Below, in pieces: positions 7,792 to 14,545 of a stretch of DNA of 39,137 nucleotides; position 1 is the first letter of the stretch; every line of letters begins with the position of its first letter. The stretch covers positions 1 to 39,137 of the forward strand of contig JAGNBF010000074.1 of the NCBI GenBank assembly GCA_018004935.1. The letters are read 5' to 3'. The DNA is from Chloroflexota bacterium (GTDB lineage: Bacteria; Chloroflexota; Anaerolineae; Promineifilales; Promineifilaceae). The position numbers were made by a program, and so were the translations under genes. The notes beneath the pieces were generated by a model. It had not been told where the DNA came from and did no database searches. It saw only the letters and a list, made by a program, of their open reading frames with translations.

Positions 7792-8207
7792 ATGATCCGA
7801 CGGATACGTGTCCAAGGGTACAAATCATTAAAAGATGTGGAAATGGAGTTGCGGCCGCTCACTTAGCCATTCTCAGCCCAATAGCTCTAGCTAAGACAAC
7901 AGTATTGGGTTATGAGGAGCCAGAAAATGGTGTGCATCCACGCCGGTTGAAGTTAATTGCTGATTTATTACACCATGCGGCTGAAGCAAATGAGCATTTG
8001 CAAATCTTAATTAACACCCATTCCCCGGTGTTGCCAGAATATTTTGACCCGCAGTCGCTGATTGTTTGCCGCAAGGAAGGTCGAGAAAGCAAATTCATTC
8101 CTTTCTCCCATTTTCAAATGAATGACCGGAACTGCCTGCTTATAAATGTGAACGCGGCCGCTACAAAACAGCGATGCGTCAGGCCATGTCTACTTATTCG
8201 CCCTTAG
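7792..8207 (+). pseudogene. AAA (OLD/RecF-like) ATPase remnant with internal deletion
   Basis: Two pieces of one ATPase gene remain. Piece 1 (7792-7866) reads MIRRIRVQGYKSLKDVEMEL, then RPLT and a stop: the usual first strand of an SMC/OLD-like ATPase just before Walker A. Piece 2 is in another frame from 7851 and reads AAAHLAILSPIALAKTTVLG, then YEEPENGVHPRRL and INTHSPVLPE, the Walker B and H-loop region. Walker A and the whole middle are missing. The switch from one frame to the other occurs at a GCGGCCGC octamer (7851-7858), which is the natural LRPL codons of piece 1 and an Ala-Ala-Ala start for piece 2. The gene cannot make an active ATPase. Confidence 0.75.
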
Positions 8208-8338
8208 GGGGGGTTGAATTCGGGGCGGAGATTGCTGAGGCAATGGATTTATATCAGGCAACTCAAGCCGATAGTTCTCTAAAACATTTTCTTGACCAAC
8301 TGCAACAGGCCTTCAGTTCATTCTATCCTCTACCTTAA
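8126..8338 (+). pseudogene. C-terminal remnant of a second gene, possibly DUF4276-like
   Basis: A frame from about 8126 reads PELPAYKCERGRYKTAMRQA, then AMSTYSPLGGVEFGAEIAEA and HFLDQLQQAF, to a TAA at 8336-8338. It has no start codon and overlaps the end of the ATPase remnant in another frame, so it is the tail of a separate gene whose 5' part was lost. AAA ATPases of this type are often followed by a small DUF4276 partner, and the ending fits loosely, but I cannot confirm the family. A GCGGCCGC octamer at 8154 codes Arg-Gly-Arg here. Confidence 0.45.
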
Positions 8339-8694
8339 TTGGCCTTCGTTAATTGTTCTCGTGCCGCTTTGGGCAGGCTTTTGACGACGAGGGTGTAAGC
8401 GTGGTCAATGAGTGCCCAGATTTCTTCAACGGGTAGGGAACCATCCAACGTGATGGTGTTCCAATGTTTTTTATTGAGATGATAACCCGGTCGAACGGCA
8501 GGGAACTGGTCACGCAGGGCCAGAGCATAGTCAGGGTCACATTTGAGGCTGATTTCCAGGGGTGAAGCAGGCCAGGCGACCAGGGCAAACATTTTACCTG
8601 CCACTTTGTAGACAAACACATCTGGGCCGAAGGGGATTTCTTCGCTGGTGGCCGGTTTTTGGGTGAGGTAGGCACGGAGGGGTTCGAGTTCCAT
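8335..8694 (-). CDS. MmcQ/YjbR family protein
   Basis: A 119-residue protein of the MmcQ/YjbR (CyaY-like fold) family. Typical blocks are FVYKVAGKMFALVAW (about residues 27-41), ISLKCDPDYALALRDQFPAV, GYHLNKKHWNTITLDGSLP and LIDHAYTLVVKSLPK near the C-terminus. Length is normal for the family. Members are described as DNA-binding because of their fold, but their cellular role is poorly known. It is the last gene of a minus-strand run that includes the HAS-barrel and nurA genes, though a short spacer with GGGCGTG tandem repeats (about 8698-8716) separates it. Its stop overlaps the converging remnant by a few bases. Confidence 0.88.
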   Translation of the reverse strand: MELEPLRAYLTQKPATSEEIPFGPDVFVYKVAGKMFALVAWPASPLEISLKCDPDYALALRDQFPAVRPGYHLNKKHWNTITLDGSLPVEEIWALIDHAYTLVVKSLPKAAREQLTKAN

Positions 8695-8748: not shown

Positions 8749-9387
8749 TTAGAAGAGTAAAGGGTCAGTGGTGATTTGTAAATCAGGCAGGGCGTCGCTG
8801 AGGGCTTCCAGGGTGGGAATGAGGATGTCGTAGTTGCTCCGCAGTTGCTCGATGACTTCCTGGATGACCTTCATGGCCCACACGGTATCGCGGCCGCGTA
8901 GTTCATACACATTCACAATATGCGCCGCCAGTAACTGGGTGGTGGGGATGCCGGACGCGGCCGCGCCCAAAATCAGCCGCATGTACCCCAACGAATCGGT
9001 AAACTGGCATACTTCGTCATTGTCTACACACAATTCTACGGGATCAAGGTTGAGTGGCGGCCGCGGCGGGAGTCCATGCCGGATGGTGCCATTACGCCGA
9101 TAGCCCACCGCCAACACCGCCATCTCAATGGGGCGCAGGCGGTTTTGCCGCTGATCTTCTACCACTTCGGCGGGGGGATCTTCCGCCAACACCAGCCTCT
9201 GCACCACCGGATCATCATCAATGTTGATCTGGTAAATCAGGCCGTACACCGCTTCCCGGCTATCTACCGGTTGCGCCTTCACCAACCCGCCAAAACCAGG
9301 AATCTGCAACTGAGCTACCCGGCACCCCGCCGCAAACCCCATCGTACTGGCCCGCAATACCCGTCCTATCTGTTCATTTTGCCGCAT
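8749..9387 (-). CDS. HAS-barrel domain protein (HerA N-terminus-like, no ATPase)
   Basis: A 212-residue protein. The N-terminal half looks like a HAS-barrel, the beta-barrel at the front of HerA helicases and F-type ATPases: QIGRVLRAST (about 5-14), GFGGLVKAQPV, AVYGLIYQI, then VLAEDPPAEV. The C-terminal half is mostly helical and has no Walker motif, so the HerA motor is absent. Its neighbour upstream is nurA, the usual partner of HerA, which supports a role in double-strand-break end processing, perhaps as an adaptor to a HerA-like motor encoded elsewhere. The ATG at 9387 is chosen because AGAGGA precedes it by seven bases. The longer GTG frame begins inside an AATTCGTG intergenic repeat. 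Confidence 0.7.
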   Translation of the reverse strand: MRQNEQIGRVLRASTMGFAAGCRVAQLQIPGFGGLVKAQPVDSREAVYGLIYQINIDDDPVVQRLVLAEDPPAEVVEDQRQNRLRPIEMAVLAVGYRRNGTIRHGLPPRPPLNLDPVELCVDNDEVCQFTDSLGYMRLILGAAASGIPTTQLLAAHIVNVYELRGRDTVWAMKVIQEVIEQLRSNYDILIPTLEALSDALPDLQITTDPLLF

Positions 9388-9423
9388 TGATTCGTCCTCT
9401 GAAAGTCTTGCCACGAATTTCAC

Positions 9424-9574
9424 GAATTAACACGAATTTTCTTCGCATTCTCGTTTCACACTCCGCGTGGAATGCTCGCGGCGACGCTTTGCATCGCATA
9501 GGACGCCGAGCGTCCCCAATGGTATTCCCACGCAGAGCGTAGGAATCAGTTCTTAACGCACCACGCACCACGTT
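9424..9574. repeat. Spacer with AATTCGTG and GTGCGTG short repeats
   Basis: The spacer between nurA and the HAS-barrel gene contains ACGAATT motifs repeated three times (about 9413-9440), an imperfect palindrome around GGACGCCGAGCGTCC (about 9501-9515), and CACGCACCACGCACCACG at its nurA end. No gene is seen. Confidence 0.5.
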
Positions 9575-10780
9575 TTACATCTCATGCCGCGTCTTGCCTG
9601 CCCGCGCAACGTCCTTCGTACTCTGTTTGTTCGTCTGGCTACTGCTGATGCCATATTTCTGCATCGTCAGAGCGATCCAGCTATCCAGATAATCCTGATC
9701 CTGTTTGCCCACCACGGCTACTTCGTCGGCGCGGGTGAGGATATAGGGGTAGTTGCCCAGGAGTATCTGGCATTGGTGGTAGATGAGGGCGTGTAGTTGG
9801 CTGATCACCGCCGGGTCTTGCGCCGCCCAGATGGGTACGTCCACACGGGCAATCTGTTTGTCGTTGTGGCGACCGGGGTTGAGGTAGAAGAAGCAGACCG
9901 CCTGCCCCGCCTGTTCAAACCGCTCGTTGCGGGTAGAAATATCCATAAACACAGGGCTACGCTCGCCCGGTTTGAGGATTTCGCTGTACAAATCCACGTC
10001 GGTCAGGGTTTGTTGCTGGCGGCTAAAGCGGCCGGTATCAAACTGGGGTGTACCGACTTTGAGCGATTCCAGCATGTTGAGGACGGAGATTTTGTTGGGG
10101 CGGTCAATGTAACCGGCCAAAATGCCGTTGCATCGTTGGATGTCGCGCATTTTTTCCAACCAGGTATCAATGGTGGTGTCATGTTCGGCGCTGTCCATAC
10201 TGCCGATGGGCCAGTAGAGCAGGCGTTGGTCGAGGATGGCGATGAGGGGCGCGGCCGCGAACCGATTCTCCCACACCGTCCTTGCCAATGTGCTGATTTC
10301 TGCCACATCCCGCTTGATGCTCACACTGGCCGGGGCATACTCCAGCAAATTTTCATTCAGGTCATCACTGGGGTAACGGATCAGAGGGATGGTGAGGGCT
10401 TCGGGGGCCTGGCCGTGGCCGTGATGGTAAATCATCACCCCCACGTTGATGACGTAATACAAAAATGGGGCATGGCGATCCGGCATGATTTGCGAGCCAT
10501 CGGTGGCGAAGAGGGTGGCCTGGGGGGGGCATGGGGGCGGTGCAATGCCCCGATCAAGTGGCTCGCGCTCGTCTACGGGCAGGGCTGCCCAGAAAATCTT
10601 TTCCCCCACTTCGTGTTTTGCCCGTCGAACACAATCTCGCAGCGTTTCCCAATCAGTTCGATGCAAACGCATGGTTTCAATGGCCTCATTAAGTAAATCA
10701 TGTCTAAGTTTCTGGCGAGATCGGGCCATGCGTCCCATGCTGTCTATTTCCCGTGTTAATTTTTCAAATTCAAGTGCCAT
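9575..10780 (-). CDS. nurA: DNA double-strand-break repair nuclease NurA
   Basis: A 401-residue NurA nuclease. The N-terminal helical part (1-85) is followed by the RNase-H-like NurA core. Motif 1 is LFATDGSQIMP, with metal ligand Asp94. A second conserved Asp lies in LIAILDQRLLYW (Asp184). The later block SPVFMDISTRNERFEQ and the C-terminal ILTRADEVAVVGKQD fit the family, where a His/Asp-rich end completes the site. NurA is a single-strand endonuclease and 5'-3' exonuclease that works with the HerA translocase in resecting DNA ends. The gene begins 13 bases after the methylase stop, so the two are very likely co-transcribed. Family length is usually 330-420, so it looks complete. Confidence 0.88.
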   Translation of the reverse strand: MALEFEKLTREIDSMGRMARSRQKLRHDLLNEAIETMRLHRTDWETLRDCVRRAKHEVGEKIFWAALPVDEREPLDRGIAPPPCPPQATLFATDGSQIMPDRHAPFLYYVINVGVMIYHHGHGQAPEALTIPLIRYPSDDLNENLLEYAPASVSIKRDVAEISTLARTVWENRFAAAPLIAILDQRLLYWPIGSMDSAEHDTTIDTWLEKMRDIQRCNGILAGYIDRPNKISVLNMLESLKVGTPQFDTGRFSRQQQTLTDVDLYSEILKPGERSPVFMDISTRNERFEQAGQAVCFFYLNPGRHNDKQIARVDVPIWAAQDPAVISQLHALIYHQCQILLGNYPYILTRADEVAVVGKQDQDYLDSWIALTMQKYGISSSQTNKQSTKDVARAGKTRHEM

Positions 10781-10793
10781 TTTTGCTCATTTG

Positions 10794-12824
10794 TCAAGCC
10801 AGGGCTTGTGCCCAAACACGCGTCATCTCAGCTTCTTCAAAATTCTGCGTCAAAAGCCATCCCAGCAAAGTACTGCATTCCATACAGAACGAATAGCTGT
10901 CGCTTTTATCTATCAATTCTGGCATAAACCATTTTGACTCAAATACATGTTGGTCTGGAGCTAGAACTAAAATTGCGTCATGAACTAGAGAATTCTGATT
11001 GGCAATATGTACTGAACTTGGGTTTTCTGCATGAACAATGTAACGGTTGACCAAGTGGAATCCAGCCTGTTTCAATGCAACGGTTAAATTCGCCCATCCT
11101 TTTGGATTCCAATGATGAAAAGTAAAGATAAGACGCCCTTCGGGTTTTAACACTCGGTGACATTCCATAAAAATGTCGCTTAAAACTTTTGTGTACTGTC
11201 CATTCCCGTTTGTGTGTTGATCAATAGCCGCATTATTTAGATCATAATCCCAGATGATACCGGTTGGGACTAAATGACGTAGCCACACACGGAAAAAAGC
11301 GGCCAAATCACCATATTGAACACTGTCAAAGTAGGGGGGATCTGTTACAACAAAATCAACGCTATTGTCAGGCAGATCAAGACGGGCAGAAGATCCATGA
11401 ATCAGCATAAAACGTTTTTGTTGACCATTAAAATCTGTAAAACGGTGAACCTCTGTACCTGCATCCTCTTCACCTCGAATTGTAACTTGGGTCGCTTTGC
11501 CGTTTTGGATGCGGCGTTCTACAGGGTTTTGTGCCCATTTGCGGCCGCGTATAAGACGGCTATAAAACAGGTTTTGTAACGTTCCAGAGGTTTTTCCTCG
11601 GTAAACAGGGTTGTTCTCTAGTGCGGTGTAAGGGAAAGAATACGCATGATGGGCAAATGTATGTCTTATTGCGCCGGGGCGATTCTTAGCAACCCCTTTA
11701 TACCCACAAAGTAGGCTGTTAAATTCAACGGAAGTAGACACCAGAAGAGCCAGATTGAGATGCACAACAGGATCTGTATCGAGTTGGGTTAAATATTGAA
11801 TGGCTTTCCGTAGGTACAGCAATTGGCGACTGGAAAACAAATCAAGATAGTGCGGAATGCCTCTATTGATAAGACTTTGAGACTTTGCTCCAGGGGTAAT
11901 TAGAAAATCTTGTGTTTGAAAACCAGCACAGGAACGCTTTTGTTCTGCAAATTCAATCATAGCCAAATCTTCATCGCCTACAGCTCGGAAAAACAGACCA
12001 TGCTCCATACATTCGCCAACAGCAACAAGGGGCACATATCGCTGATAATAAGGAATAGTCAAATCGTCTTGATACTCCGTTCCGCAAATTGAACAAACTT
12101 TTACATCTTTCTCAAGCAATGGGATTTTCTGATGGATGGAAGACTTGCTGATAACTTGTTCATCCTGTAACACATTAAAACTATTTGCACACAGTTTAAT
12201 GGTTGTGCCATCACTGTTATGGCGCAGGGTATATGAATCTACAAAGATAGCTTCATGACAACTACAGCGACGACGTAAACCATACAGGAGAAACTGCGAC
12301 GTATAGGATTTATCACAGTCGGGGCACGTCACACGGTATAAATGGGCCAACTCACCATACAACTGTTCATAAAACCGTAAGTAAGCCGATTCTAGTTGTT
12401 TGATTGAAACTTCAGAAAGGGAAGCGCGTGCCTGTAAAACAGGAATGGGATCAATGTCGGCACCAATAACATTCGCACCAAGTCTTATCGCTTCATGCAG
12501 AGTAGTTCCCCCCCCCATCATCGGATCAAGAATTATTTTCCCTTCCAACCCTCCCGGTGTGTAATAATCTTGATGATTAGGCATGTCTACAAGGTGCTTA
12601 AGTATGAAACGAAATGTACTCCCACACCTTCTTGCCCACCACTTATGGAGATACGTGTTGGGTCGGTAAAGATTTTTGTTATATGACTCTAGTTGAGCCA
12701 TTTCATCCGCTAAAGCGGTGGTAAAATGGCTATCAATGGGGATGCCCAAATCCCGTCCATTAGATGACCCAGTAAAAAGGTACAGTTGCTGATCCGGTTC
12801 TTGAACTCGGTTAATCTCTTCCAT
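10794..12824 (-). CDS. Zn-ribbon DNA methyltransferase, COG1743/DUF1156 type
   Basis: A 676-residue DNA amino-methyltransferase. The N-terminal block YNKNLYRPNTYLHKWWARR (48-66) is typical of DUF1156/COG1743 proteins. AdoMet motif I is DPMMGGGTT (100-108), followed by GADIDPIP. Two cysteine pairs, CPDC (167-170) with CSC (187-189), and CSIC (244-247), suggest zinc ribbons for target recognition. The catalytic motif is TDPPY (494-498). DPPY is most common in N6-adenine enzymes but also occurs in some N4-cytosine enzymes. It follows the NotI-like endonuclease by 35 bases, with AAGGA before its ATG, and precedes nurA by 13 bases. The DNA is AT-richer than the neighbours and holds one GCGGCCGC octamer (11541), suggesting horizontal arrival. 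Confidence 0.85.
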   Translation of the reverse strand: MEEINRVQEPDQQLYLFTGSSNGRDLGIPIDSHFTTALADEMAQLESYNKNLYRPNTYLHKWWARRCGSTFRFILKHLVDMPNHQDYYTPGGLEGKIILDPMMGGGTTLHEAIRLGANVIGADIDPIPVLQARASLSEVSIKQLESAYLRFYEQLYGELAHLYRVTCPDCDKSYTSQFLLYGLRRRCSCHEAIFVDSYTLRHNSDGTTIKLCANSFNVLQDEQVISKSSIHQKIPLLEKDVKVCSICGTEYQDDLTIPYYQRYVPLVAVGECMEHGLFFRAVGDEDLAMIEFAEQKRSCAGFQTQDFLITPGAKSQSLINRGIPHYLDLFSSRQLLYLRKAIQYLTQLDTDPVVHLNLALLVSTSVEFNSLLCGYKGVAKNRPGAIRHTFAHHAYSFPYTALENNPVYRGKTSGTLQNLFYSRLIRGRKWAQNPVERRIQNGKATQVTIRGEEDAGTEVHRFTDFNGQQKRFMLIHGSSARLDLPDNSVDFVVTDPPYFDSVQYGDLAAFFRVWLRHLVPTGIIWDYDLNNAAIDQHTNGNGQYTKVLSDIFMECHRVLKPEGRLIFTFHHWNPKGWANLTVALKQAGFHLVNRYIVHAENPSSVHIANQNSLVHDAILVLAPDQHVFESKWFMPELIDKSDSYSFCMECSTLLGWLLTQNFEEAEMTRVWAQALA

Positions 12825-12859
12825 TTGATGAATCCTTGTTCCTCGTTTGAAACTCGTTT

Positions 12860-13663
12860 TTACAAACGGAATTTGATCGCGCTTTGTGCTTTTTGCTGTA
12901 GATTAGCCACAAATTTGTTTAGAGAGGGGATGTGGGGATTGCTGATAAAGGCTTCTTGTAACTTCTTTACAGTCGTTGACTCTATTCGAGAAGAATATAA
13001 AGAATACTGGTTTCCCTGTAGTGCCAGATCACAGACCAAAAATACTGTCGAACTTTCACTCCCCGGTGTGAGACTATTTTTTAACCCATACGAGATCAAG
13101 AGATGTTGATAAGCTGGCTCTTGTACTACCCAATACGCTTTGTGCCCCCACTGTTCCAACACTCTTCCCTTGTTCAGAATCTGAATGAAACAACGTTTCC
13201 ATACATTTGCCCAGTTAAGACCAAAATTGTAATGAGATACTTCCCCATCTGCCCAAAAATCAGCTACAGCCGTATTTAGAGCACCCGTGTTAGTCGTGTC
13301 AACTGTTTGAAACTCAACAATAACAAAATCTTCCACTTCATCACTTAAAGGCTTATGTTTCACCATGACATAATCAAACGATCCCAGGCTTTTGTCACCC
13401 GAGTGAACCTCAGAAAACACTAAAATATTATCTTTGGTTCCAAAATGGTTTGTAGCTATTTCTTCAAATATCAAACGTGATTGAAGAAAGCGATTAGGGC
13501 AAATTGCGACAACAGACTTACCATGTTCTACAGAACACGTAGCATTTGTTTTTGTACACCGCCCATGCATAAATGGACACTGACGTTCTATGTTTGATAC
13601 ACCTTTGGCAAAAGGGAAAAGATCAATTGCATAACCTAAAATTTCTGCCGGACGTTTAGTCAT
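12860..13663 (-). CDS. NotI-family type II restriction endonuclease
   Basis: A 267-residue protein that matches the architecture of R.NotI. Four cysteines, Cys29 (QCPF), Cys36, Cys43 and Cys55 (ICPNR), correspond to the metal (Fe) ligands of R.NotI, including the CPF...CPNR framing. The PD-(D/E)XK-variant active site is GSFDYVMVK (Asp97) followed by VIVEFQTVD (Glu117, Gln119), the unusual D...EXQ set of NotI. NWANVWKRCFIQILNK matches the NotI block with NVFKR. R.NotI (383 aa) is longer, with additional C-terminal sequence. Known function of the family: Mg-dependent cleavage of GC-rich sites, GCGGCCGC for NotI itself. AAGGT precedes the ATG by six bases. Recognition sequence is not provable from sequence. 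AT-rich and free of GCGGCCGC. Confidence 0.8.
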   Translation of the reverse strand: MTKRPAEILGYAIDLFPFAKGVSNIERQCPFMHGRCTKTNATCSVEHGKSVVAICPNRFLQSRLIFEEIATNHFGTKDNILVFSEVHSGDKSLGSFDYVMVKHKPLSDEVEDFVIVEFQTVDTTNTGALNTAVADFWADGEVSHYNFGLNWANVWKRCFIQILNKGRVLEQWGHKAYWVVQEPAYQHLLISYGLKNSLTPGSESSTVFLVCDLALQGNQYSLYSSRIESTTVKKLQEAFISNPHIPSLNKFVANLQQKAQSAIKFRL

Positions 13664-13754
13664 GGTGTACCTTGATAATCAAATAAAATTGCATGGGTGA
13701 ACAGTCCCAATCATACCAAATACTGAGTTATCTGTCCGCACAAATGTTCCGGTA

Positions 13755-13988
13755 TCATTTGATGACACAACTCTTCAGATCACCGGGAGCGTAATAGTCG
13801 CGGCCGCGATCCCCCTCTACCAATTGCTTCAAAATTGCCCGGAACGTCGTGCCACACCGCCGCGCCCACCATTTGTGCAGGTAGGTGTTGGGGCGGTACA
13901 AATTCTTGTTATACGACTCCAGCCGCGCCAGTTCATCGGCAAACTCCGTGTCGAAGGTGTGGTCAATGGGTAGGCGGGTGAGGGGCAT
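13755..13988 (-). pseudogene. Truncated N-terminus of a second COG1743/DUF1156 methylase
   Basis: Seventy-seven codons read PIDHTFDTEFADELARLESY, then NKNLYRPNTYLHKWWARRCG and FRAILKQLVEGDRGRDYYAP. These match residues 30-92 of the intact methylase at 10794-12824 closely, then stop just before AdoMet motif I should appear. It is GC-rich like the local genome and holds a GCGGCCGC octamer (13800, Arg-Gly-Arg), unlike the intact AT-richer copy. The simplest reading is that this is the stump of the resident methylase that once stood next to nurA, replaced by an incoming endonuclease-methylase pair. A translated stump is possible but would have no catalytic domain. Confidence 0.75.
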
Positions 13989-14114: not shown

Positions 14115-14545
14115 TTGGCAAGGTAGGGAATGATAACTGCCCCACCATCGGCTTGCCAACAAAAAAGGGTGACAATCGCGTGTCACCCTTTCACCACGTT
14201 CCCCTCACCCTGCCCTCTCCCCCTGGAGAGGGTGTGCTCCCTTCTCCCAATGTGGGAGAAGGGCCGGGGATGAGGGTCAGCTTCTTACCTTTTGGCAAGG
14301 TAGGGAATAATAACTGCCCCACCATCGGCTTGCCAACAAAAAAGGGTGACAATCGCGTGTCACCCTTTCACCACGTTCCCCTCACCCTGCCCTCTCCCCC
14401 TGGAGAGGGTGTGCTCCCTTCTCCCAATGTGGGAGAAGGGCCGGGGATGAGGGTCAGCTTCTTACCTTTTGGCAAGGTAGGGAATAATAACTGCCCCACC
14501 ATCGGCTTGCCAACAAAAAAGGGTGACAATCGCGTGTCACCCTTT
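14115..14545. repeat. 177-base tandem repeat, two full copies and a partial third
   Basis: Units begin TTGGCAAGGTAGGGAA at 14115, 14292 and 14469, an exact period of 177. Each full unit holds the hairpin AAAGGGTGACA / TGTCACCCTTT with loop ATCGCG (14164-14191, 14341-14368, 14518-14545), then CCCTCTCCCC and GGAGAAGGG blocks. The hairpins, bordered by A and T runs, could terminate transcription in both directions. Confidence 0.85.

Follow-up and report, generated by a model that had tools for sequence, protein, structure and literature searches.

A NotI-family endonuclease and its methylase at the nurA locus of a Chloroflexota bacterium, and a highly iterated palindrome in the same genome

Genes of the nurA string

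The window, by which we mean the whole stretch of 39,137 bp analysed here (on contig C49 of a 7.98 Mb assembly), contains a string of four genes on the minus strand, which in the direction of transcription encode a NotI-family endonuclease, a 676-residue methylase, the nuclease NurA and a conserved protein of 212 residues (Table 1). The intergenic gaps along the string are 35 bp between endonuclease and methylase, 13 bp between methylase and nurA, and 187 bp between nurA and the gene for the 212-residue protein, the first two being just as a preliminary description of the locus had given them. Elsewhere in the window, a fragment at 7905-8207(+) resembles the C-terminal part of AAA_21/HEC-01A/MAD3-type ATPases and is a probable gene remnant, no upstream remainder having been seen, and positions 14115-14545 hold a 177-bp unit in 2.4 tandem copies, all of them carrying an inverted repeat, GGGTGACA...TGTCACCC.

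Table 1. Features of the nurA string and its immediate surroundings.
Feature	Position	Strand	Characteristics
NotI-family endonuclease, 267 aa	12860..13663	-	PF12183; four Cys (29/36/43/55); D97...E117xQ119
Zn-ribbon (COG1743-like) DNA methyltransferase, 676 aa	10794..12824	-	DPMMGGGT; CxxC pairs; TDPPY
NurA nuclease, 401 aa	9575..10780	-	PF09376; DGS motif 94-96
Conserved 212-aa protein	8749..9387	-	In relatives, encoded between nurA and herA; HAS-barrel label unproven
5' stub of 77 codons, putative displaced resident methylase	13757..13988	-	71% identity over 66 columns; GC3 ~0.8
Low-GC tract, probably imported	10600..13752	-	Edges approximate; GC 0.42; GC3 ~0.35 versus ~0.7 around
YjbR/MmcQ family gene	8335..8694	-	Downstream, at the spot where relatives have herA

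The endonuclease scores 42.7 bits against PF12183 (curated cut-off 22), retains all four metal-binding cysteines (C29, C36, C43, C55) and carries the catalytic motif D97...E117-F-Q119 in alignment with NotI. A profile of the protein's relatives also matched the solved NotI structure 3bvq (E 1.3e-4), with both motif blocks aligned, which upholds the family assignment of the preliminary description; its predicted structure (model pLDDT 61) gave no Foldseek match in the PDB at E<=0.001. Compared with the NotI restriction-modification (R-M) system (PF12183; PDB 3bvq/3c25), the window pair has the same Cys-rich N-terminus, D...ExQ site and adjoining methylase, but the endonuclease belongs to a divergent subfamily that matches NotI at the profile level only, and its partner is a Zn-ribbon DPPY methylase. 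No other PF12183 match was found in the host genome. Such genes occur in 9 of the 98 genomes searched and, within the family, in 4 of 52, the host being the sole carrier of this particular subfamily in the sampled family.

Homologues 42-54% identical to the window endonuclease were retrieved from 11 loci of distant metagenome-assembled genomes, of which 10 include flanking sequence, several on short contigs. In all 10 the methylase directly precedes the endonuclease, overlapping it or lying a few bases away, and the two genes also adjoin one another in G085; the fourth cysteine is replaced by Ser in two of the homologues (L002 and L005). By family and by this conserved adjacency, the window genes are likely to constitute a type II R-M pair. 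Other NotI-family genes are paired with D12 methylases (G066, G089) or with an N6_N4 methylase (G014), and since the partners of the family vary in this way (D12, N6_N4 and C5 methylases), membership of it does not fix the recognition site. The expectation that nurA would recur as a neighbour of NotI homologues was not borne out beyond the host's own family: Blast gave no match to NurA in the 11 distant loci, and a Pfam scan of ten neighbours sampled from them found none.

The window methylase matches PF01555 (E 4.7e-16), with motif I (DPMMGGGT) in its N-terminal part, CxxC pairs at residues 167, 244 and 647, and a motif IV, TDPPY, that is common to all relatives whose alignment covers that position. 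A DPPY motif usually, if not conclusively, denotes N6-adenine methylation, and the enzyme probably modifies adenine (m6A). The NurA assignment was likewise sound, PF09376 covering residues 89-357 with an E value of 1.4e-18 and the DGS motif being kept in relatives. The 212-residue protein, for which the ATG at 9387 is a likelier start than a GTG that would extend the reading frame to 9423, is conserved within the family at 54-69% identity. Its earlier designation as a HAS-barrel protein was not confirmed, since the window protein has no Pfam match and only 2 of 13 homologues touch PF09378, at a best E of 0.12. Comparison with HerA by hhalign gave a probability of 0.5%, and a single-sequence structure prediction (pLDDT 34) was unusable.

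The nurA locus in relatives and an atypical tract in the host

Homologues of nurA are present in 53 of 59 relatives, and in most of the retrieved loci that are long enough to show it, the order is nurA, the gene for the 212-residue protein and then herA (PF01935). Within these genomes, all of which are drafts, the same methylase as in the window lies directly upstream of nurA without NotI in G001, G006, G007, G010, G013, G031 and G032, and its 3' part does so in G029; in other relatives the methylase is found away from nurA. The occurrence of this arrangement in multiple relatives, together with the rarity of NotI, identifies methylase-nurA-212-residue gene-herA, as judged from the genomes compared, as a recurrent locus of the family that mostly lacks NotI. 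In the host, herA does not adjoin nurA, as it does or nearly does in relatives, and a YjbR-family gene follows the 212-residue gene in its place. The reported absence of HerA therefore holds for the window and fails for the genome, where an intact HerA, 79% identical to that of a relative, is encoded on another contig (G000:C20:207-1904).

Two relatives carry a NotI-family gene of another subfamily, ~27% identical to that of the window. In G028, DUF84-NotI-methylase ends one contig and NurA-212-residue protein-HerA starts another, and because the order DUF84-methylase-NurA in G006 matches these contig ends, the G028 gene is probably at the same spot as the window endonuclease. In G029, one contig closes with NotI-methylase, and the contig that opens with NurA has another copy of the methylase attached to it; a position at the same locus is no more than possible. 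No overlap was found between the contig ends of either genome. The G028 gene (L080:15902-16885) has Lys in the position of the catalytic Glu, and its product is perhaps inactive.

Also relevant is the base composition of the string. From ~13,752 to ~10,600, that is, across NotI, the entire methylase and codons 1 to ~50-60 of nurA, GC3 is ~0.35, compared with ~0.72 in the remainder of nurA and ~0.8 in a stub of 77 codons that lies upstream of the tract. The stub is 71% identical to the intact window methylase over 66 columns, and the match gives out close to where that protein has 'GLEGK'. The low-GC3 tract and the adjacent stub suggest that NotI, the methylase and the start of nurA arrived together by recombination, and the location of the right-hand break inside nurA suggests that the donor already had methylase and nurA in that order. 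No donor genome was found for the tract. In a phylogenetic tree the methylase clusters with those methylases of the family that are linked to nurA, and not with the ones linked to NotI in Desulfobacterales and others, at a placing fork (support 85/97, drawn open) that is not strongly supported. The tract contains 1 copy of the octamer GCGGCCGC in its 3.15 kb, a scarcity that is uninformative, other low-GC stretches of the genome being equally poor in it.

Explanations of the co-location

The gene order, the protein families, the stub, the composition breaks at either end of the tract and the NotI-free methylase-nurA-212-residue gene-herA loci of relatives are all read directly from the DNA. 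On this basis the best reading is that an imported R-M pair was grafted onto a resident methylase-nurA-212-residue gene locus, to which we assign a probability of about 65%. The donor would have been a relative of lower GC in which the order NotI-methylase-nurA was already in place, and the incoming segment, ending in the start of nurA, would have recombined into the resident locus of the host, truncating and replacing the resident methylase and the beginning of the resident nurA. The endonuclease may then cut unmethylated DNA at a site protected by the (probably adenine-specific) methylase, and the degradation of the cut ends could fall to NurA, together with the HerA of contig C20. The four genes from NotI to the 212-residue protein are not a dedicated system. 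We put the chance that end degradation by HerA-NurA is the reason for the co-location at about one in three; the layout is accounted for equally well, without functional coupling, by recombination through homology in the methylase and nurA genes.

In its pure form, the latter explanation holds that the locus attracts recombining R-M cassettes through these homologous genes, restriction and NurA having no link, and we consider that it falls slightly short of an even chance. Both the methylase stub and the crossover inside nurA are in agreement with it, as is the frequency of resident methylases in relatives, here and elsewhere in their genomes; what it leaves unaccounted for is that NotI-family genes, although rare in the family, are at one locus in the window and probably in G028.

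Doubtful, in comparison, is a coupled defence module in which the endonuclease cuts, NurA and HerA destroy the DNA and the methylase marks self, the NotI types serving as interchangeable front ends. Such a module would account for the two divergent NotI subfamilies that occupy the position just before the methylase in the window, in G028 and possibly in G029, as well as in the putative donor. It would also agree with a report on the Thermococcus HerA-NurA, according to which both strands of dsDNA are degraded irrespective of how the ends are built; an antiviral role in place of resection has been proposed by its authors (PMC12977600). However, nurA, the 212-residue gene and herA are mostly kept without NotI, nurA was not found near the distant NotI homologues, herA is apart from nurA in the host genome, and the G028 enzyme has the catalytic substitution noted above. 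The coupling of a restriction enzyme to end processing put forward in the preliminary description thus survives to the extent that the gene order recurs (in the putative donor and probably in G028) and fails in that nurA mostly occurs without NotI. Of the two fates that it offered for the cut ends, destruction of foreign DNA fits a HerA-NurA acting on any end better than does a hand-over to resection.

The likeness to the HerA-NurA translocase-nuclease lies in the NurA-family nuclease of the string and in a HerA that is present in the host genome and beside nurA in relatives, whereas HerA on a separate contig in the host, the additional conserved 212-residue protein between the two and the methylase at the head of the locus are differences. 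HerA-Sir2 and HerA-DUF4297, anti-phage systems coupled to HerA (as cited in PMC12977600), share with it the combination of a HerA-family motor and a nuclease partner; the present set differs in having NurA as its nuclease and in occurring widely in the family, and a defence role for it is putative.

A highly iterated octamer

The window contains 56 copies of GCGGCCGC (for example at 814, 8890, 8957, 9057, 10251 and 13800) versus 1.0 expected from dinucleotide shuffles. Genome-wide there are 12,040 copies in 7.98 Mb, or 1 per 663 bp, versus 2 of the backwards pattern; the ratio of observed to expected counts (O/E) is 63 in a 387-kb sample, and among the palindromic octamers of a 671-kb sample it ranks first by a factor of ten, with 1033 copies versus 98 for the next. 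The spacing is nearly random, with a greater density in ORFs (1.69 versus 0.75 per kb). The 55 further genomes of the order that were compared, by counts of the extended motif, have no comparable excess; G005, G016 and G025 show a mild one (O/E 13-22, from small GC samples).

Most of what is known of highly iterated palindrome (HIP) elements comes from cyanobacteria. The elements of these organisms, such as HIP1, are palindromic octamers that occur at roughly 500-2500 per Mb (Elhai 2015, PMC4390886), and GCGGCCGC, a GC-rich palindromic octamer at ~1,500 per Mb with an O/E of 63 and a near-random spread, is a highly iterated palindrome by the same measures, its density being in this range and far above that of all other palindromic octamers. 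Its sequence is a different one that does not appear among the alternate HIPs given in the same study, and a search of the open-access literature yielded no description of GCGGCCGC as an iterated palindrome.

Prototype NotI cleaves GCGGCCGC, and the host is alone in the order in having the excess and alone in the sampled family in having this NotI subfamily, yet it is highly improbable that GCGGCCGC is the target of the window pair and that the pair is connected with the excess: the DPPY motif suggests m6A and the site lacks A/T, so that the pair is probably aimed elsewhere, the varied methylase partners of NotI-family enzymes imply varied specificity, the octamer is not in excess in the 11 genomes that carry this subfamily elsewhere, and relatives carrying the methylase show little or none (O/E 0.6-4.5). 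For the last two reasons, neither the NotI gene nor the local methylase was retained as a cause of the excess, and the pair is an unlikely one.

The candidate C5 methylases for GCGGCCGC in the host genome are those of contigs C180 and C76. At L112:10209-12420(-) (G000:C180), the gene of a C5-cytosine methylase overlaps that of a second NotI-like endonuclease, a divergent one (hhalign 98.8%); homologous pairs also occur in G041, G013 and G015, accompanied in G041 and G013 by a Vsr gene. At L105:9437-12442(+) (G000:C76), a ParB-like protein, a 325-residue protein without a Pfam family and an HhaI-like C5 methylase form a string that is possibly another R-M system. That methylation by one of the host's cytosine methylases, perhaps the C180 enzyme, drives the excess is a long shot. 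Vsr-type repair was rejected as a cause, no Vsr gene having been found in the host genome.

Several palindromes are avoided in the genome sample (GAGCTC, GCCGGC, GGGCCC, GTCGAC, CTGCAG, CAGCTG and GCGCGC, at ratios of 0.01-0.05), as is GCWGC (0.09), which suggests many past or present restriction pressures. The scarcity of GCAGCCGC one-off variants was set aside as a repair signature, since it is explained by the general avoidance of GCWGC.

With regard to the biology of the family, the locus would illustrate the docking of R-M cassettes onto resident methylases. If restriction cuts do pass to HerA-NurA, a widespread machine of uncertain bacterial role would have its ends supplied naturally and a function in defence that is open to testing. 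The iterated octamer, as a side observation, may outweigh the locus itself and is the most worth following: 12,040 copies beside relatives without an excess constitute an independent case for testing methylase models of HIP origin, and if the C180-type reading were true, an R-M lineage would have spread 12,000 copies of the site it recognises through the genome of its host.
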